Part shown: positions 2,482-29,015 of the stretch, piece by piece
Numbering within the stretch: position 1 is the first letter of the stretch
Layout of the letters: every line of letters begins with the position of its first letter
Virus record (IMG/VR): IMGVR_UViG_3300036835_000203
Location: 1 to 29,015 of that record
Reading direction: 5' to 3' (one strand)
Source of the DNA: a virus
Length of the DNA stretch: 29,015 nucleotides
Translations under genes and position numbers: made by a program
The notes under the pieces: model-generated
The model's database searches: none
The model's input: the letters and a program-made list of their open reading frames with translations, nothing else
Told to the model about the DNA's origin: nothing

Positions 2482-3260
2482 CGCGCGTCAGCAGCGACGC
2501 GGATCTGCTCAACCAACTGATCGGGCTGCACTACTACCACGAGCCGATCATTCTTGACGCGTCGTGGGGTGGTGGACGGATGTGGAAGGGCTGCCCCTAC
2601 CAACCATCCGTCCGGCTCGACCAGCGCGCGCTCCCGGGCGTCGATATCGTCGGCGACTGGAACAATCTCGGCCAACTGTTCACTCCGGGGACGTTCCAGA
2701 TGGTGGTGTGGGATCCGCCGCACCAGACCAACGGTGGCCAGAACGCGCTGGCCAGCAAACGCTGGGCGGACAGGTACGGCACCGACATCTACCGCGCGGA
2801 GGACATCACCGGTCTGTACCCGGGCTTTCTCAAGGCCGCGCGGGAGGTCCTGCAGCCGGTCGGCACGCTGCTCTGCAAGCTCGCTGACCAGGCACACACG
2901 GGCGTACAGCATCTCCAGGCGGTGGACTTCGTCGTCGCCGCGCGCGCGGCTGGCTGGACCGTGTGCGAGATGGTGCCCAAGCTGCGCCGACCAGGACCGA
3001 TTGACCCGAAGTGGCGGCGCCAATTCCACATCCGCAAGGCGTGGAGCTACTGGATCTGCGCCCACCCGGGCGCGCGCTGCCCGGCGGTGGGCGTGCCGCT
3101 GGTCAGGACCTGCGAGGCCTGCGGACGTGGGTTTCATGCCCGACGCCGCGATGCGCGGACGTGCAGTCCCAACTGCAAACTTCGCCGATGGAGGCGCCAA
3201 AAAGAAACCTTTAGCAGTAGCGTCGCCCAACAGATAAAGGTTTCAAAATTGAGCTCATGA
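2478..3260 (+). CDS. DNA methyltransferase-like protein with C-terminal zinc finger
   Basis: This 260-residue protein has a motif-I-like SAM-binding loop (IILDASWGGGRMW, about 24-36) and a catalytic-type DPPH at 79-82 in VVWDPPH, a variant of the DPPY/NPPY motif of amino-DNA methyltransferases. Residues 107-170 show the expected later strands (LLCKLAD, TVCEMVPK). The C-terminus carries a four-Cys finger, C212-x2-C215 and C229-x3-C233 (CEACGRGF and CSPNC), followed by an Arg/Lys-rich stretch suited to DNA contact. Methylation of phage DNA, for example against host restriction, is the likely role. The target base is unknown. The last 20 residues are Ser/Lys-rich and AT-rich at DNA level, unlike the rest of the gene, and contain an inverted repeat. 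The ATG overlaps the previous stop. Confidence 0.75.
   Translation: MTRVSSDADLLNQLIGLHYYHEPIILDASWGGGRMWKGCPYQPSVRLDQRALPGVDIVGDWNNLGQLFTPGTFQMVVWDPPHQTNGGQNALASKRWADRYGTDIYRAEDITGLYPGFLKAAREVLQPVGTLLCKLADQAHTGVQHLQAVDFVVAARAAGWTVCEMVPKLRRPGPIDPKWRRQFHIRKAWSYWICAHPGARCPAVGVPLVRTCEACGRGFHARRRDARTCSPNCKLRRWRRQKETFSSSVAQQIKVSKLSS
3204..3244. repeat. AT-rich 10-bp inverted repeat, 21-nt spacer
   Basis: GAAACCTTTA (3204-3213) and its exact reverse complement TAAAGGTTTC (3235-3244) flank a 21-nt spacer. The pair sits at the 3' end of the methylase gene and 12 bp before the next ATG, in one of the most AT-rich patches of the window. It could be an operator, a protein-binding site or an RNA hairpin. 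There is no T-run behind it, so a simple terminator is unlikely. Confidence 0.7.
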
Positions 3261-3451
3261 AGCTGTCGATCGACGACCTGAATGATTTTGGCCGCGCCCG
3301 CCTCGAGGACGATTTCGCCAATGTGGAGCGACGGGACGGTGGCAAGACGTCGCGTCTCGACTTTGCGCTGGGCTGGATGGCGATGGCGGTGCGACATCGA
3401 CTGTGGAGCTACTTCGAGACACCACCAGACGTCGGGGACAAGTCCGGATGA
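3257..3451 (+). CDS. hypothetical protein, 64 residues
   Basis: The ATG at 3257 overlaps the methylase stop (ATGA), and the frame ends in overlap with the next ATG at 3448. The product begins MKLSIDDLNDFGRARLEDDF and continues with an apparently helical stretch (LDFALGWMAMAVRHRLW). It is soluble and mixed-charge, with no Cys. I cannot assign a family. The inverted repeat just upstream may affect its expression. Confidence 0.55.
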   Translation: MKLSIDDLNDFGRARLEDDFANVERRDGGKTSRLDFALGWMAMAVRHRLWSYFETPPDVGDKSG

Positions 3452-3681
3452 CACGGCGGCCGCGGGCGCTCGAGGGCGAGACCGAACGCGAGTACGCCTG
3501 GAGAATCTATCCGGACGACGCGCGCGAGCTGCTGCTGGCGCCGGAGCGACGCTGCAGCCAGCCGCTGTGTCAGGCCCCCATCTGGTGGGGTTTTTCTAGA
3601 GTCAACAACCGGCGGTGTCCGTTCGACATCAAACCGGACGGGACCAGGACGACAACCAACCACTGGCGAACGTGCAGATAA
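3448..3681 (+). CDS. small zinc-binding protein, 77 residues
   Basis: The ATG at 3448, overlapping the upstream stop, is preferred to an in-frame start at 3403. After a basic N-terminus the protein has a Cys/His arrangement: C-x4-C (CSQPLC) followed by IWWGF, RCPFD and a final NHWRTC. This spacing resembles small phage zinc-ribbon proteins of the pattern C..C ... G..PFD ... H(W/F).TC. Nucleic-acid binding is a reasonable inference. A terminator-like hairpin with five T residues is embedded in its coding sequence (3576-3595). Confidence 0.65.
   Translation: MTRRPRALEGETEREYAWRIYPDDARELLLAPERRCSQPLCQAPIWWGFSRVNNRRCPFDIKPDGTRTTTNHWRTCR
3576..3595 (+). terminator. terminator-like hairpin inside a coding region
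   Basis: CCCCA (3576-3580), the loop TCTGG, and TGGGG (3586-3590) form a 5-bp GC-rich stem followed directly by TTTTT (3591-3595). The shape is that of a short intrinsic terminator on the plus strand. It lies inside the zinc-ribbon gene and about 110 bp before a gene with its own strong ribosome-binding site. The stem is short, so it may be only partly active or fortuitous. Confidence 0.35.
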
Positions 3682-3707
3682 CGACCAGAGAAAAAGGAGC
3701 GATAGCG

Positions 3708-4019
3708 ATGCAATTCAAAGCGCGACTCGCCGCGGTGCGCGGCACGCCCTTACGCGCAGATGACGTTCGCACGGTCATTCGTCTCAACCTGGAGGCGCAC
3801 GACATTCCAGCGGACTGGCTGTTCGAGCAACTCGGTGAGGACCTGGTGGTCAATCTTGCCCAGAGCACGCCGTCGATGGGGCCGCTCTTCGAAGCGGACG
3901 CGGAGGAAGTCGAGGATCGCAGCAACGGGCATGTGGAGGACGAGGCGGAGTCCGAACGGGTGGTGGTTCGATCCAATGGCCGGCGGCGGCACGGCACACG
4001 CTCGAGCGAGCAGGTCTAG
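3708..4019 (+). CDS. hypothetical protein, 103 residues, acidic tail
   Basis: The start at ATG 3708 is chosen over an upstream in-frame start because an AAAAAGGAG ribosome-binding site lies at 3691-3699, one of the clearest in the window. The first 65 residues look folded (PLRADDVRTVIRLNLEAHDI, then WLFEQLGEDLVVNLA). The last 40 are highly charged, acidic then basic (EADAEEVEDR ... RSNGRRRHG), and probably disordered. It is the first gene after a break in the overlap chain, so it may head a new translational unit with the replication genes. Function is not recognised. Confidence 0.65.
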   Translation: MQFKARLAAVRGTPLRADDVRTVIRLNLEAHDIPADWLFEQLGEDLVVNLAQSTPSMGPLFEADAEEVEDRSNGHVEDEAESERVVVRSNGRRRHGTRSSEQV

Positions 4020-4031
4020 GGAGCTTGCCAG

Positions 4032-4361
4032 GTGGCTGTGCTGGACACGCACTGGCATGCCAATCCGAAGATCCTGGCGCTCGGGCTCGACGCGATGGGG
4101 CTGCACGCGTGGAGCATCAGCTACTGCGACGATCTGTTGACTAACGGATTCGTACCTTTGAACGCGTTGCCGCAGCTGCCGCGCATCAAGCAGGCGGTCA
4201 AGGCGCTGGTGGATGCTGGTCGGTGGGAGGTTGTCGACGGCGGATTCCGGTTGCATAACTATTTGCGCTACAACCGGAGTCGGGAGAAGGTCGTCGCGGA
4301 GCGCGACGCGGCGCGGATGCGGCGGGAGCGAGGGCGCGCCGTGAATGGCCATGGCCCATGA
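4032..4361 (+). CDS. phage replication-initiator-like (winged-helix) protein, N-terminal part
   Basis: The GTG start at 4032 is preceded by AGGGAG at 4018-4023. The 109-residue product follows the layout of phage replisome-organiser N-terminal domains: DTHWHANPKILALGLDAMGL, a stretch with NGFVPLNALP, then LVDAGRWEVVDGGFRLHNYL and a basic YNRSREKV...RMRRERGR tail. In that family a winged helix binds origin DNA and recruits replication proteins. The protein is shorter than typical members because its frame ends at 4361, where a second ORF starts in another frame (ATGA) and supplies a repeat-rich, Ser-rich tail such as these proteins often carry. The following 11-bp repeats support an origin-linked role. 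Confidence 0.68.
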   Translation: MAVLDTHWHANPKILALGLDAMGLHAWSISYCDDLLTNGFVPLNALPQLPRIKQAVKALVDAGRWEVVDGGFRLHNYLRYNRSREKVVAERDAARMRRERGRAVNGHGP

Positions 4362-4651
4362 TCTGTTCGCCCGACGTTCGCCCGACGTTCGCCCGAAGTT
4401 CGCCCGAAATTCCGGCGACGTTCGCCCGACGTTCGGCCGCTACCCGGTCCCGGAGTACGTCGCTAGCTCTTAAAGACTCTTCTACCGGCAGCAGTAGCAG
4501 CAGCCAGACCGGGAGTGCGACCGGAGACCTGACGCCGGTGAGCCGCGCGCGCGAGGAGCGGCGCTCGCTGAGTTCAAATGCGGGGCAACGCAGGGCTGCT
4601 GCTGCTGCTGCAAATCTTGATTTTTTGACGAAAGTTTGGGTGTCTGCGTGA
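4358..4651 (+). CDS. 97-residue low-complexity protein coupled to the initiator (possible split C-terminal part)
   Basis: The ATG at 4358 overlaps the stop of the initiator-like gene, and the TGA at 4649-4651 overlaps the next GTG, so both ends fit the coupling pattern. The product starts with imperfect 11-residue repeats (SPDVRPTFARS, SPEIPATFARR) encoded by 11-bp DNA iterons. A Ser-rich patch (SSTGSSSSSQTGSATG) and an Ala run (RAAAAAAN) follow. This is probably disordered. It may be the tail of the replication protein split off by a frame change, or a separate product. The DNA it spans may matter more than the peptide. Confidence 0.45.
   Translation: MICSPDVRPTFARSSPEIPATFARRSAATRSRSTSLALKDSSTGSSSSSQTGSATGDLTPVSRAREERRSLSSNAGQRRAAAAAANLDFLTKVWVSA
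4365..4441 (+). repeat. seven 11-bp direct repeats (iteron-like)
   Basis: Consecutive 11-bp units start at 4365, 4376, 4387, 4398, 4409, 4420 and 4431. Consensus is GTTCGCCCGAC. Units 1, 2 and 6 are identical, units 3 and 4 end in AA, and units 5 and 7 are diverged. Spacing is about one helical turn, so a bound protein would sit on one DNA face. The array lies just downstream of the winged-helix replication gene, as phage origins often do. Confidence 0.85.
4365..4640. other. candidate replication origin region
   Basis: The block combines the 11-bp iterons (4365-4441), an imperfect 18-bp inverted repeat made of CAG- and CTG-type triplets (4488-4505 against 4594-4611, one mismatch, 88-nt loop), and an AT-rich stretch (about 4612-4640, containing GATTTTTTGACGAAAG) that stands out in this GC-rich sequence. 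Iterons plus an AT-rich segment beside an initiator-like gene is the classical layout of a theta origin. Assignment as origin is inference. Confidence 0.5.
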
Positions 4652-5070
4652 CCACTCGCGAGTCTGCTCTGAGCGAGTCTGACGCGCGCCAGATCGCGTG
4701 GGATTTTCGTCAGCAATTTCGCAACAGCGAGGCCTTCGAGCTGGCCTGGCACGCGCTCTTCGAGCTACGCACCGCCGTCACGCCCAGCCTGGCGCGGCGC
4801 TTCCTGCGTGAGGAGCTGGTCAAATATCGCGCCCACCTGGCCGGCCTGGAAGAACCCCCGCTCGGCGGCGCACCGCCCACCCCGCTGCGTCCGGGCCAGT
4901 CCGAGACGTATCGCTGCCCCGGGTGCGAGCGCGACCTGCCGGAGTGGTCACGCCAGGGCCACGCGCCCGACTGTCGGAATGCCGACTGCTACGGCCTCGA
5001 AGTGCGCTTTCGCGAGGGTCTGAGAAAACGCCGTCAGTCGCGCAAGAATGCGGTGGCAGCCGATGTCTGA
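4648..5070 (+). CDS. putative zinc-finger protein, 140 residues
   Basis: The GTG at 4648 overlaps the previous stop and is preferred to a TTG at 4636. The N-terminal half is helical (SESDARQIAWDFRQQF; AFELAWHALFELRTA). The C-terminal half carries a Cys cluster, CPGCERDL then HAPDCRNADC, followed by a basic tail (RKRRQSRKN). The C-x2-C ... C-x4-C pattern suggests one zinc-binding module and possible nucleic-acid binding. It follows the candidate origin and precedes the terminase genes. No family is recognised. Confidence 0.65.
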   Translation: MTTRESALSESDARQIAWDFRQQFRNSEAFELAWHALFELRTAVTPSLARRFLREELVKYRAHLAGLEEPPLGGAPPTPLRPGQSETYRCPGCERDLPEWSRQGHAPDCRNADCYGLEVRFREGLRKRRQSRKNAVAADV

Positions 5071-5290
5071 CCACTGTGTGTGCTGCGGCCAGCCGCTCGA
5101 GCTGCACCCACCCGGCTTCGGCTGGTACTGCTCGATACCCTGCGCCGAAGACCAGCTGCGCGCCCAGGTCCTGGGGACGCTGCTGCACAGCACGCCGCGC
5201 CGGGCCCTCAGCGTCGAAGAGTGGCACGACCTGAGCTCGTCCTACGCCACCGACCTGGCCACTCTCGAGCAGCTGGCGGTCCATGTCTGA
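5063..5290 (+). CDS. small Cys-rich protein, 75 residues
   Basis: The ATG at 5063 overlaps the previous stop by 8 bp and is preferred to an in-frame start at 5048. The N-terminus has CVCCGQPLEL and then WYCSIPC, a treble-clef-like zinc finger arrangement. The rest is helical (LRAQVLGTLLH; DLATLEQLAV). It directly precedes the small terminase gene with a TGATG overlap, so it could be a DNA-binding accessory of packaging or late gene expression, but this is only positional. Confidence 0.6.
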   Translation: MSDHCVCCGQPLELHPPGFGWYCSIPCAEDQLRAQVLGTLLHSTPRRALSVEEWHDLSSSYATDLATLEQLAVHV

Positions 5291-5724
5291 TGCCGCGCGG
5301 CGTGCCCCACTCGCCCGAGCTGCGCGCCCAGGTCGTCGCCGCGGTCCTGGCCGGCACCACGGTCGCCCAGGCTGCTGTGCAGTTCGGCGTCAACAAGAGC
5401 CTGGTCTCGCGCTGGGCTGCGCAGGGGTTGCAACCAATTGCAACCGAGCAACGCGCGCGTGCGCGCGACCCCGAGACGCTCGAAGAGCTGCTGTTTGACC
5501 TCGTCGCCACCAACCTCCAGACGCTTCGCCTTCAACTTCAGGCCGCAACTCGCCCGGATTGGCTTGAAAAACAGTCCGCTGCCGAGCTTGCCCAATTGGT
5601 TGCAGCTGAACGCGACACCGTCCTTCGATTACTCGCCGGACTCCGACCGGCCGTCGACCACAATCCGGCTGGACTCCCGCCACCTGCCGACGCTGCATCC
5701 GGCCCAGCAGACGATGGTGGATGA
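5290..5724 (+). CDS. terS: terminase small subunit (putative)
   Basis: This 144-residue protein starts at the ATG overlapping the upstream stop (TGATG). Residues about 8-45 form a helix-turn-helix (ELRAQVVAAVLAG, then AAVQFGVNKSLVSRW), the type used by small terminase subunits to bind the packaging site. A helical middle (LEELLFDLVATNLQTLRLQL; AELAQLVAAERDTVLRLL) fits an oligomerisation region, and the C-terminus is Pro/Ala-rich. The large terminase follows at once, partly overlapping in another frame. HTH plus position make the call likely, though a transposase-like HTH protein cannot be excluded from the N-terminus alone. Confidence 0.72.
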   Translation: MPRGVPHSPELRAQVVAAVLAGTTVAQAAVQFGVNKSLVSRWAAQGLQPIATEQRARARDPETLEELLFDLVATNLQTLRLQLQAATRPDWLEKQSAAELAQLVAAERDTVLRLLAGLRPAVDHNPAGLPPPADAASGPADDGG

Positions 5725-6916
5725 GGCCCGGCGCTTCAACGTGGCCGTGTGTGGCCGACAGATGGGCAAGACCACGCTCGGCATCGAACGCGTCGCGCGT
5801 GGCGCTGCCGACGGTCTGCCGTGCGCCTGGTTCGCGCCGACCTACAAGTATCTCGACCAGGTGTGGCGCACGCTGCGCGAGGTGCTCGAGCCGGTGACGA
5901 TCACCAAGAGCGAGCAGCAGCACCGCCTGGACCTGCACGGTGGTGGCAGCGTCGATTGCTGGTCGCTGGAGGACGCTGACGCCGGCCGCGGCCGCCGCTA
6001 CGGGCGCGTGGTGGTCGACGAAGCGGCCATGGTGCGCAACCTCGAGCAGGTGTGGCAGGCGTCGTTGCGACCCACGCTGAGCGTGCTGGGTGGTGACGCG
6101 TGGTTTCTCAGCACGCCCAAGGGCCTGAATTACTTCCACCAGTTGTACCGGGTGGGTGTGGACCCGCACGAGGCGGAGTGGCAGGCCTGGCAGCTGCCGT
6201 CGTCGGCCAGTCCGTACATCCGCCCCGAGGAGATCGCCGCGGCGCAGCGCAGCCTGCCCGAGCGCGTCTTTGCCCAGGAGTACCTGGCCCAGTTCCTCGA
6301 GACCGAGGGTGCCGGCGTGTTCCGCGGCGTGCGCGCGGTCTCACGGCTCCAGCCACAGCCGCCACAGCCCGGGCACGTGTACGTCATGGGTTGCGACTGG
6401 GCGCGCACCGAGGACGCCACGGTGTTTTCGATCCTCGACGCCACGCTCGGCGAGCAGGTCGCGATCGACCGCATGATCGGCACCGACTACGAGCTGCAGC
6501 TCGAGCGGCTACACGGCTGGGCGGCGCTGTACCGTCCGCGGGCGATCGTGGCCGAGGCCAACAGCATGGGCGGGCCGCTCATCGAGCGCCTGCAGCGGGG
6601 CTATGCGCGGTTACTCGGAAGTTCGCGACCGGCGCTCCCGGTCATCGCCTGGACAGCGACGGTGGGCACCAAGGCACACGCGGTCCAGCAGCTCGCACTG
6701 GCCATCGAAAACGGCCAGCTCACGCTGCTGGACGACCCAGTCCAGGTCGGCGAGCTGCTGGCGTACGAGGCCAGCGTGCTGCCTTCCGGTGTGACCCGCT
6801 ACGCAGCGCCGGAGGGTGGGCACGACGACACGGTCACTGCGCTCATGCTGGCGAACCTCGCGGCGGCGCAGGAGCCGATGACCACGCGCTCGAGCTACGC
6901 GTTTGGTGGCCGATGA
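5600..6916 (+). CDS. terL: terminase large subunit (packaging ATPase/nuclease)
   Basis: This protein drives DNA into the prohead and cuts concatemers. From the TTG at 5600 it has 438 residues: an adenine-binding-type LHPAQQ at 32-37, Walker A CGRQMGKTT at 51-59, Walker B VVVDEA at 137-142, and coupling motif STPKG at 171-175. The RNase-H-like nuclease then shows GCDWA (D266), VAEA (E319) and GGHDD (D409/D410). All key residues are present. The frame is open further upstream to 5438 inside terS. The only ATG before Walker A is at 5714, but it would remove the LHPAQQ segment, so the TTG at 5600 is preferred without a clear ribosome-binding site. The end overlaps a tiny ORF as ATGA. Confidence 0.92.
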   Translation: MQLNATPSFDYSPDSDRPSTTIRLDSRHLPTLHPAQQTMVDEARRFNVAVCGRQMGKTTLGIERVARGAADGLPCAWFAPTYKYLDQVWRTLREVLEPVTITKSEQQHRLDLHGGGSVDCWSLEDADAGRGRRYGRVVVDEAAMVRNLEQVWQASLRPTLSVLGGDAWFLSTPKGLNYFHQLYRVGVDPHEAEWQAWQLPSSASPYIRPEEIAAAQRSLPERVFAQEYLAQFLETEGAGVFRGVRAVSRLQPQPPQPGHVYVMGCDWARTEDATVFSILDATLGEQVAIDRMIGTDYELQLERLHGWAALYRPRAIVAEANSMGGPLIERLQRGYARLLGSSRPALPVIAWTATVGTKAHAVQQLALAIENGQLTLLDDPVQVGELLAYEASVLPSGVTRYAAPEGGHDDTVTALMLANLAAAQEPMTTRSSYAFGGR

Positions 6917-7190: not shown

Positions 7191-7534
7191 AGCCCGAGGA
7201 GCGCATCCGCATCGGCGTGCTGGACGTGACCGGCGACCTGACCTTCCAGACCGTCGACTACCAGGCGCACGTGCTGCACGACGTGCTGGGCGGCTACATG
7301 GAGACGTTCCCGCTGCCGCGCCACCTGCGCGAGCGCGACCTCGTGGCCATCGCCGACGAGGACGGCAACCAGAAGCAGCTGCCGTACAACCCCTTCAGCC
7401 CGCTGCTGGGGCGCCAGATCGTGGGCCGCGTGCTGCTGGTGCGCTCGGACCTGCCCGAGTTCGTGAGCCTGACCGACGACGACGTCGAGGCGCTCAGGGA
7501 GTGGTTCGGCCAGCTCGGCGGACGAAGGTTCTAG
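7187..7534 (+). CDS. DUF3846-like protein, 115 residues
   Basis: The ATG at 7187 overlaps the previous stop. The sequence resembles DUF3846 proteins: HDVLGGYMETFPLPRHL, then VAIADEDGNQKQLPYNP and a strand QIVGRVLLV. Residues about 8-95 cover this region, and the C-terminus is helical (DDDVEALREWFGQL). DUF3846 proteins occur in phages and plasmids and have no settled function that I know of. The stop is a TAG inside CTAG at 7531-7534, whose other strand gives the stop of the convergent gene. Confidence 0.6.
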   Translation: MKPEERIRIGVLDVTGDLTFQTVDYQAHVLHDVLGGYMETFPLPRHLRERDLVAIADEDGNQKQLPYNPFSPLLGRQIVGRVLLVRSDLPEFVSLTDDDVEALREWFGQLGGRRF

Positions 7535-7878
7535 CGATGGCTGCGGTAGTACGGGTCGACGTAGGTGCCGTCGGAGCGCGTGTAGCCGCTCACGTACTCG
7601 GTGCGTGGCAGGCCCGTCGTCTCAGAGATCGAGCCATAACCGCCAAAAGCGCTCGACGAGCTCGGAGACGTGCTGTACCGACCTGGGTCATACGGGCTGG
7701 GATTGCCGGTGTAGTTCGGCGAACCGCCAAGACCGCTGGGGTAGTACACGTCACCCCCTGATGACAGACAGACGGTGCACGACTGGGCGGACGCAGCGGT
7801 CGGAATGGCGAAGACCCCGACCAGCGCGAGCGCGGCGGCGAGGGCGCCGAATCGGGCACGATAGGATCGAATGTGCAT
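7531..7878 (-). CDS. secreted Tyr/Gly/Ser-rich protein, reverse-strand cargo gene
   Basis: This is one of only two genes on the reverse strand. The 115-residue product starts with a clear Sec signal peptide (basic MHIRSYRARF, hydrophobic core, AASA before a likely cut at residue 31). A short C-x2-C (34-37) and a Gly/Ser/Tyr/Pro-rich middle follow. The C-terminus, YVSGYTRSDGTYVDPYYR, has the GYxRxDGTYVxPYxR pattern found in small secreted bacterial proteins. A reverse-complement AAGGGG ribosome-binding site lies 10 nt before the ATG. It looks like a morphogenesis-independent cargo (moron) gene of bacterial origin. Whether it alters the host surface is unknown. Confidence 0.72.
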   Translation of the reverse strand: MHIRSYRARFGALAAALALVGVFAIPTAASAQSCTVCLSSGGDVYYPSGLGGSPNYTGNPSPYDPGRYSTSPSSSSAFGGYGSISETTGLPRTEYVSGYTRSDGTYVDPYYRSHR

Positions 7879-24020: not shown

Positions 24021-24463
24021 GCCACCAGCTGGTGCCTGTCTCGGCGCCGCGGCAGGCGCACCGCGACGGTTGCACCTTCGGCAGCGGCTTCTATCGCATC
24101 GTCATGACCGACGGGTCGCGGCGCTTCTGCCAGTCGGAGGGCGAGGTCGAGTTCGTCTCGAACCTGCTGCCGGCGGGCGCGATCGCGCGCGTGCAGCGCG
24201 ACGGGTTCTGTCTGGATGATGCGGAGTACACCGCGACCGGCGACGCGCGCACGCCGGATGTTTTGGACGGCGCCCGATTCCTCGACCTGCCGCGCGAGGA
24301 GGGCATCCGCGAGCTGGGCGTCACCGACGAGGCCGACTACGCCCGCGCCTACCGCGCGGTGGAGGAAGCGGTGCTCGAGCGGGACCGCCAGCAGGCGCAC
24401 GGCGGCGTGCACGCCAGCATCGTCATCAAGCGCAAAGGCCGGCCCAGCCCCGTCGACGCGTGA
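24017..24463 (+). CDS. hypothetical protein, 148 residues
   Basis: The frame starts at ATG 24017 in overlap with the previous stop and ends in GTGA overlap with the collagen-like gene. The N-terminal half looks like a small beta-rich fold ([20 protein letters not shown] then [12 protein letters not shown]). The second half is helical and charged ([20 protein letters not shown]), and the C-terminus is basic. No signal peptide or catalytic motif is seen. It is unrecognised. The context suggests a tail or head-tail assembly role. Confidence 0.6.
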
Positions 24464-25290
24464 CCGAGACGCCGACCCTCAACCCGCTCGCGCCGAAGCA
24501 GGCGCCGCCGCTGCAACCGGTTGGTGGTGGTCCGGTACCGCCGCTGGTCCCACCCGGCAGCACGCCGCCACCGGTACCGCCGTTCCAGCCCGACTATCCG
24601 CCGGCGTGGATCGGGCCACCAGGTCCACAAGGCCCGCCTGGTGCGGACTCGACGGTGCCGGGTCCACCTGGTCCGAAAGGCGACGAGGGCGACGAAGGTC
24701 CGCAAGGAATTCAGGGTGAGCAGGGCATTCAGGGCCCACCCGGCGGTGCGCCGTCGTGGCAGGGCGAGTGGACCTCGAGCGTGGATTACGCCAGCAACGA
24801 TGCGGTCAGCTTGAGTGGCTCGAGCTATTACGCTGCGGGCGATCCGGTGCTGGGTGTCTCGCCACCGGCCGTGCCGTGGCAGCAGATCGCCGCCAAGGGT
24901 GACACCGGGCCGCAGGGCGCCACCGGTCCGACTGGCGCTACGGGCGCGGCCGGGCCGCAAGGCGATCCAGGCCCAGCTGGAGTACAGGGACCCAAAGGTG
25001 ACACCGGCGCTCAGGGCCCGCAAGGTCTACAAGGTGCCACCGGCGCCACCGGCGCGCAGGGTGTCCAGGGACCAACCGGTGCGACCGGCGCCAGCGGGCC
25101 TGGCGTCGCCGCCGGCGGCACCACCGGCCAGCTGCTGACCAAGACCAGTGGCACCGACTACGCCACCAACTGGGCGGACCCGGCCGTCACGCTGGCGGCC
25201 TTCAACGCGCTCGTGGCGCGCGTGACCGCGCTCGAGACGGCCATCGCGGCGATGCCCAATAGCCTCGAGGACCTGGTGTACGCCGGCTGA
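24460..25290 (+). CDS. collagen-like tail fibre/spike protein
   Basis: The 276-residue product begins at GTG 24460 (GTGA overlap). A Pro-rich N-terminus (1-50) leads into a first Gly-X-Y block (about 52-96, [12 protein letters not shown] ... GPQGIQGEQ). A non-collagen insert (about 97-146, [20 protein letters not shown]) resembles a carbohydrate-binding module. A second Gly-X-Y block (147-214, [16 protein letters not shown]) follows, then [20 protein letters not shown] and a short coiled coil ([18 protein letters not shown]). Collagen repeats make trimeric shafts. Such fibres often mediate adsorption. Confidence 0.82.
24613..25101 (+). repeat. two collagen-type Gly-X-Y repeat blocks
   Basis: Triplets (GGX/GGC-type Gly codons every 9 bp) encode Gly-X-Y blocks at about 24613-24747 and 24898-25101, separated by a 150-bp non-repeat insert. 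The blocks are prone to length change by slippage, which would alter fibre length. Confidence 0.75.
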
Positions 25291-28286: not shown

Positions 28287-29015
28287 ATGTCACGACAGAA
28301 CGCGACCAACTTCAGCGGGGCGCTGCAGTTCCCGTACGCCAACGCGGCGGCGGACCTGTTCAAGATGGAGGACGTCCAGGTGCTGGCCCAGGCGGTCGAC
28401 CAGCACGACCATTCCAGCGGCAAAGGCTTGATCCTGCCGGCCGCGGCGATTCCGGATGGGTCAATCACCGCGGCCAAGATTGCCAACGGCACGATTACCA
28501 GTGCCAAGATCGCTGACGGCACGATTACCGGCACTGACATCGCCAATAAGACGATCGGCGCGGCGCAGCTCGCGGACGGGCAGATCGGCGCCCAACAGCT
28601 CGCCGATGGGCAGATCACCAATCCGAAGCTGGACGGCAACGCGGTCAGTCAGATTCAGATGGTGCAGGGGTTCACCGGCAATCCCTCGACCACCTCCGGC
28701 ACGATGGTCATCATCCCGGACATGGCCGTGGCCATCAATCTCGCCCGCGCGGCCAAGCTGCTGCTGGTTTTTTGCGGCAGTTTTGTGTGTACGGTGGCGG
28801 GCTCGGCGTCGTTTCAATTGAGCATTCCGGGCCAGACGGTCAGTAAGGTGCTGGTCTACAGTGGCGTGGGCGGCGCCATCTTCCCGGTGGCGATCAATCA
28901 CCTGGTCACGCTGGCCGCCGGCTCGTACAGCGGCCAGGCGCTCTGGTCGGCCACGGGTGGCGCGACGCTGCAGCGCTACGGCGCCGAGTCGCAGATTGGC
29001 GTCCTGGAGTTGAGC
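28287..29015 (+). CDS. tail fibre protein (3' end beyond window)
   Basis: The ATG at 28287 follows TAAGGAGGG (28268-28276), the strongest ribosome-binding site in the window, which is formed partly by the preceding stop codon. The frame is open to the edge (243 codons). An N-terminal segment with DQHDHSSGKGL (residues 38-48) is typical of phage tail fibres. Six decapeptide repeats (57-116, DGSITAAKIA-type) follow, and then a beta-rich region (LLLVFCGSFVCTVAGSASFQ). The repeats likely build a fibrous shaft and the C-terminal part the tip. The strong site suggests high expression. Confidence 0.78.
   Translation, partial: MSRQNATNFSGALQFPYANAAADLFKMEDVQVLAQAVDQHDHSSGKGLILPAAAIPDGSITAAKIANGTITSAKIADGTITGTDIANKTIGAAQLADGQIGAQQLADGQITNPKLDGNAVSQIQMVQGFTGNPSTTSGTMVIIPDMAVAINLARAAKLLLVFCGSFVCTVAGSASFQLSIPGQTVSKVLVYSGVGGAIFPVAINHLVTLAAGSYSGQALWSATGGATLQRYGAESQIGVLELS
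28455..28634 (+). repeat. six 30-bp coding repeats in the tail fibre
   Basis: Six tandem decapeptides with consensus (D/N)G(T/S/Q)IT.AKIA-like sequence: units begin at residues 57, 67, 77, 87, 97 and 107. The first three are closest to each other. Similar IADGTI repeats occur in phage fibre shafts. Copy number could change by recombination. Confidence 0.8.

Follow-up and report, generated by a model that had tools for sequence, protein, structure and literature searches.

The window, i.e. the whole stretch of 29,015 nucleotides that was analysed, is a linear viral record of 29 kb from a soil phage, coding for RecT, a methylase-like gene, a protein of 109 amino acids, a terminase and the N-terminal domain of a primase. 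The gene for the 109-amino-acid protein (4032-4361, plus strand, like all other features of the locus) is considered a replication-initiation gene on the basis of a match to the profile phrog_2447, an AlphaFold model and fold matches to viral proteins. It is followed by an array of seven 11-bp units (4365-4441), a strongly conserved block (4445-4613) and an AT-rich stretch (4608-4641), and then by a gene for a Cys-containing protein of unknown function (4648-5070), which is a conserved neighbour in the relatives L002, L020 and L034. The preliminary description had placed the repeats right behind the initiator gene, which is correct in that the TGA of this gene (4359-4361) overlaps an ATG at 4358. 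The latter opens a frame of 97 amino acids (4358-4651) spanning both array and block, and L020 has the same ATGA overlap. The coding status of this frame is undecided: no family match was found for it in Pfam and phrog profile searches, and its counterparts are open in L002, L020 and L034. A programmed frameshift leading from the initiator gene into this frame was considered and dropped, as the shift required would be -1 in the window and +1 in L002.

Elsewhere in the window, a perfect 26-bp tandem duplication is found near the left end (153-203), a minus-strand ORF of 115 amino acids with a signal-peptide-like start (7531-7878) lies among plus-strand genes, a collagen-like Gly-X-Y protein is encoded between structural genes (24460-25290), and a fibre-like protein (SAKIADGTI) has 30-bp repeats (28473-28543). 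At 5291-5725, a TerS-like HTH frame overlaps the listed TerL start at 5438, the true start of TerL being probably located later.

With respect to the initiator, profile searches revealed a match of residues 5-103 to phrog_2447, a phage replication-initiation protein family (E 1e-23). This profile comprises 295 positions, of which the protein matches the N-terminal third; the C-terminal part is missing, the stop at 4359 coming after a basic helix. The window thus harbours a short form of the initiator. Such short forms, ranging from 97 to 144 amino acids, occur in several phages, where those of 97-140 amino acids are annotated as replication initiation proteins. The AlphaFold model, based on 18 aligned relatives (mean pLDDT 85), predicts a winged-helix core (residues 1-84, 4032-4283) and then a long basic helix of 22 residues (84-105, about 4281-4346). 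Among the viral folds that match are replisome organizers and HTH proteins from phages of Gordonia and Propionibacterium. Solved structures yielded no sequence match of value, and their fold matches were not clear, being limited to generic winged helices (Z up to 7.4). No Pfam family, neither lambda O nor iteron-plasmid Rep, was found up to E 0.1. The homologues found among cultured phages all belong to actinophages, several of them being annotated as 'RepA-like replication initiator' or 'replication initiation protein'. No match to a helicase loader was found among the scanned neighbours of the initiator in the window; one is annotated in the relatives Dropshot and BrayBeast.

The units of the array, which are proposed to be initiator-binding sites (iterons), read from 4365 twice GTTCGCCCGAC, twice GTTCGCCCGAA, then ATTCCGGCGAC, again GTTCGCCCGAC and finally GTTCGGCCGCT, with the consensus GTTCGCCCGA[AC]; units 3 and 4 read TTCGCCCGAA. 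Tandem Repeats Finder recovers the array with a period of 11, 6.8 copies and a score of 101, reached by none of 1000 local and none of 60 whole-window dinucleotide shuffles. The seven 11-bp iterons of the preliminary description are thereby confirmed, and its coordinates proved correct to within one or two bases. The motif GTTCGSSCGAM occurs five times in the 29 kb, every time within the array, compared with a mean of 0.33 and a maximum of 3 by chance, and the palindrome class of the array is also present in L012, L013 and L025 as well as in Gordonia and Arthrobacter phages. Taken singly, the window does not reach significance in its dyad count (4 vs 2.1, p 0.17), and the exact 2.5-unit pattern of the array found no match in viral contigs. 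Behind the array lies the C-rich CCCGGTCCCGG (4443-4453), which from its sequence might be a relic of the C-rich run of 5-6 bp that follows the array in relatives.

In the conserved block, GTACGTCGCTAG (4455-4466) is a possible counterpart, by resemblance only, of the motif TTACGTA of actinophage gaps; the exact hexamer TTACGT is missing from the window's own stretch. The block also contains the two arms of a CAG/CTG inverted repeat (4488-4505 and 4594-4611), in which 17 of 18 positions pair, the best of 100 shuffles reaching 15, so that the 18-bp imperfect inverted repeat described before stands. The RNA fold of 4485-4614 has a z of -4.6, and the corresponding arms pair in L002 and L020, too (z -3.7 and -3.1, respectively). 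The loop carries GCGCGCGCG (4545-4553), which is listed here since GCGCGCG is enriched in homologous tails (see below). That the repeat plays a role in unwinding is a guess, and it cannot be excluded that its arms merely reflect runs of Ser(AGC) and Ala(GCT) codons. The AT-rich stretch, a candidate unwinding element, was likewise found as described: it belongs to the lowest GC class of the window, being one of two places with a 30-nt stretch at GC <= 0.30 (the other is 3229-3261). It is about 170 bp away from the array, and its counterpart in L002 has 33% GC, but it is not constant across relatives.

Comparison with the closest relative L002, consisting of four contigs identical in sequence across the compared region, shows that 84% of the winged-helix residues are common to both proteins. 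At the nucleotide level, the two are 80.6% identical in the core, 91.7% across the block (4442-4613) and 78.1% over the downstream gene, whereas helix and array together (0.734) are no more similar than shuffled sequences (mean 0.710). The array is thus not conserved in L002, whose own array lies at 5294-5427 of that record; it was replaced together with the basic helix while both flanks were kept. According to the preliminary description, absence of the repeats in a close relative with the same initiator would refute an origin. Taken literally, L002 fulfils this condition; however, because its basic helix differs, L002 does not have the same initiator. Of the fourfold sites in the block, 35 of 36 are unchanged between the two (35 same, 1 different), as opposed to 24 of 41 for the gene of the core (p = 4e-5, Fisher's exact test) and 24 of 55 for the downstream gene (p = 3e-8), the sites of the block being counted in the 4358 frame, the coding status of which is open. 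Since nearly all of these sites are unchanged, and far fewer in the flanks, the block is either constrained as DNA or RNA or was exchanged recently, and it bears out the earlier suggestion that selection may act on the DNA.

For a family-wide comparison, relatives were gathered via protein or neighbourhood homology and never via repeats, resulting in a sample of 42 homologous initiator tails from soil viruses and cultured actinophages, with 504 windows from the same loci as controls. Tandem arrays with a period of 9-24 bp are present in 31 of the 42 tails in contrast to 32 controls (6%). Likewise, runs of 5-6 bp were found in 15 tails and 3 controls, TTACGT in 14 and 10, and GCGCGCG in 23 and 76, respectively. 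Perfect dyads with 5-bp arms show a 3.6-fold excess (134 in 33 tails vs 37 +/- 7 in shuffles), amounting to 4.06 per tail compared to 1.24 per control window, and, as for the arrays, this holds for coding stretches and unannotated gaps alike. The recurrent palindromes are GTTCGNNCGAAC, GTCACGCGTGAC, GTAACGGCGTTAC, AGCACGTGCT and GAACGCCGTTC, most of which occur across phages of different hosts. GTTCGNNCGAAC is translated as VRPN, RSGE or FART, i.e., in all three frames, and the palindrome class of the window, GTTCGNNCGAA, is also present in all three; moreover, GTTCGNNCGAAC is confined to the initiator gene in the records of L012 and L013. This argues for selection acting on the DNA of the tail stretch.

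The tail stretch is an in-frame linker in some phages. In the short-form phages (Sarge, Taheera, Propionibacterium phages B22, G4 and Doucette, Hestia, Ardmore, Dante, Sonali, REQ2 and Dori), an initiator of 97-144 amino acids is followed by a mostly unannotated gap of 160-280 bp, which measures 198 bp in Taheera and 213 bp in Ardmore. Gaps of similar anatomy are found in the mycobacteriophages Ardmore, Dante, Taheera and Dori and in Arthrobacter, Propionibacterium and Rhodococcus phages, and part of the gap is common to otherwise different mycobacteriophages and Rhodococcus phage REQ2.

A block of 75-100 bp with the motifs TTACGTA, ACTCACC and GCGCGC is shared by mycobacteriophages of different genera and REQ2 (L094, 2001-2099, Ardmore; L087, 1944-2042, Taheera; L111; L112). 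It has no annotated gene in many records and lies behind the initiator in those examined. In the Propionibacterium phages B22, G4 and Doucette (L089, L097 and L098), the initiators and arrays differ and the block and downstream gene are the same, the boundary of exchange lying between array and block. In L064/L065, from a complete relative (G001) with a terminase 71% identical, the initiator slot, at the contig ends, is occupied by a protein that is unrelated and contains the bZIP-like stretch NREAQARRRQR; behind it come TGAC palindromes and an array of 15 bp. No prophage relative was found in genome contigs, and at the DNA level the region had no match among cultured phages.

As to the specificity of these sites, the 16 residues behind the core were compared pairwise between phages with the DNA starting after them. 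In the discovery set, helices resemble each other more closely in pairs with a palindrome arm in common (p = 0.0002), and this remains so when only distant cores are considered, whereas similarity of the cores does not predict shared palindromes (p = 0.16 and 0.24). The rule linking helix and palindrome was then fixed in writing, and 11 new phages were fetched. Comparisons of new with old phages among distant cores only gave p = 0.0001 with helix similarity and p = 0.05 with core similarity, and by our own reading eight of the 11 fit the rule (two only partly), T36-2a and Dori do not, and Mollymur remains unclassified. However, it was the data that first suggested the helix classes, which makes the first p-values partly post hoc, and shared descent was controlled only in part. 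A general 6-mer comparison of soil with cultured phages was not significant (p = 0.13). It is as likely as not that a modular initiation cassette is common to actinobacterial phages and related soil viruses. Its putative parts would be a common winged-helix core, a swappable basic helix that recognises one of a few palindrome classes, the matching array within or after the gene, and a conserved block staying with the downstream genes. The helix would then serve as an exchangeable specificity code of the origin, by which origins could be found and assigned to their initiators from sequence alone. The combination of helix and array is apparently exchangeable; no description of such a cassette was found in the literature searched.

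Cumulative GC skew had been proposed as a check on the origin. The analysis was not done on the genome of the window itself, the record of which is a fragment, but on the detrended skew of eight relatives of 38-42 kb rotated to the initiator, four of which (G006, G008, G001 and G015) have end repeats suggesting completeness. The expected turn at the initiator is seen in five of the eight (G008, G001, G013, G015 and G009), with the skew maximum at most 510 nt from the initiator start; in the other three the maximum lies elsewhere. However, the usual sign of a bacterial origin is a minimum and not a maximum. At fourfold sites the signal is weaker and not always aligned with the initiator. The skew gives weak support to a turning point but not to its sign, and early and late gene content may contribute to it.

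Because similar repeats and palindromes recur in the same place behind most homologous initiators, because the sites occur in three frames, and because the helix predicts the palindrome class, the initiator-bound iteron origin of the preliminary description is supported by comparison. It is probable that this stretch is the replication origin region of the phage, resembling those of lambda and SPP1, with the initiator gene directly upstream of its sites, although binding, unwinding and initiation are inferred: there is good comparative support, but no experiment and no binding, replication or read-depth data. In the most likely mechanism, which is inferred, dimers or arrays of the 109-amino-acid protein would bind the helically phased units at 4365-4441, which would be read largely by the basic helix following the winged-helix core, in the major groove of half-sites. 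The resulting nucleoprotein would then open the DNA in the conserved block and the AT-rich stretch (4445-4641) and let a helicase load.

Two alternatives concern the array. It could be a slippage-prone coding linker of the initiator, with repeats generated by replication slippage and devoid of any function as DNA. In many relatives the stretch indeed encodes a low-complexity tail in frame with the initiator, containing PGPG or VPVPVP motifs; frame 0 of the window still resembles such a tail past the TGA, and not even L002 has the same units as the window. Nevertheless, a mere linker is quite unlikely given identical sites in all three frames, a family-wide dyad symmetry far above shuffles and the link between helix and palindrome, and given that many short-form phages retain the stretch although it is a non-coding gap there. 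Helically phased palindromic sites would suit a regulator as well, and the weak fold matches of the protein include LexA- and CRP-like winged helices. The array might hence be an operator at which the initiator or a repressor controls its own operon without any start of replication. However, the sites are located behind or inside the gene and not before it, no promoter-like site was found in 3600-5100 (sigma-70 type only), and the gene is filed under replication initiation (phrog_2447), which renders this explanation decidedly unlikely.

Two further alternatives concern the block. That it is an RNA element of the downstream gene (a leader, attenuator or small RNA), with the array being a separate entity, is suggested by the strong hairpin in the window, L002 and L020 and by the end of the block near the start of that gene. 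Yet the region has no Rfam match above the gathering score, none of the terminator-like sites is at the hairpin (the two predicted ones lie elsewhere), and the counterparts in actinophages mostly fold weakly, so that an RNA element is considered unlikely. The least plausible is a packaging site (cos/pac): while the TerS-like and TerL genes (5291-6916) start about 0.7 kb further on, with the conserved DNA close upstream, and contig G001 ends within the corresponding stretch, the breakpoints of complete relatives differ in place, and a similar anatomy adjoins replication and recombination genes in actinophages.

To our knowledge, the replication origins of most actinophages have not been mapped. 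The arrangement found here is seen again in dozens of phages infecting mycobacteria and related hosts, with a sequence signature in most of the 42 initiators and a testable rule connecting a short protein helix with a DNA palindrome. If the interpretation as an origin is true, it would provide origin positions for many sequenced phages and explain unannotated gaps and odd repeat peptides, and actinobacterial vectors could be equipped with small initiator-origin pairs that are exchangeable.

The proteins O of lambda and gp38 of SPP1 bind and open DNA within the very genes that encode them (PMC7466680, PMC6316719). The lambda origin in gene O, and likewise the origins of Stx phages, resembles the window in having a row of sites linked to the initiator gene. 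In lambda these sites are inverted repeats followed by an AT-rich tract, whereas in the window the dyad symmetry rests on the family-wide excess and the AT-rich stretch is a candidate unwinding element. Moreover, there are four to six lambda iterons of about 18-19 bp with the AT tract adjacent (PMC7466680), in contrast to seven units of 11 bp in the window, where a stop codon precedes the array, a conserved block of 170 bp with an inverted repeat separates it from the AT tract, and the initiator has no Pfam match to lambda O. SPP1 is comparable in that oriL lies inside gene 38, so that the direct-repeat sites of the initiator and an unwinding element are contained in the initiator gene; this phage additionally possesses oriR as a second origin, and its helicase loader is known (PMC6316719), neither of which was recognised in the window. 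In extrachromosomal mycobacterial prophages, the subject of the one functional study of actinophage origins found in the literature searched, the origin is suspected within or just upstream of repA and was likened to that of lambda; RepA is an HTH initiator, too (HTH at residues 95-132), but no repeated motifs were found in the regions examined by the authors (PMC7157519), whereas the window has an array. As inferred from these comparisons of sequence, the locus may be regarded as a variant of the known initiator-linked iteron origins.
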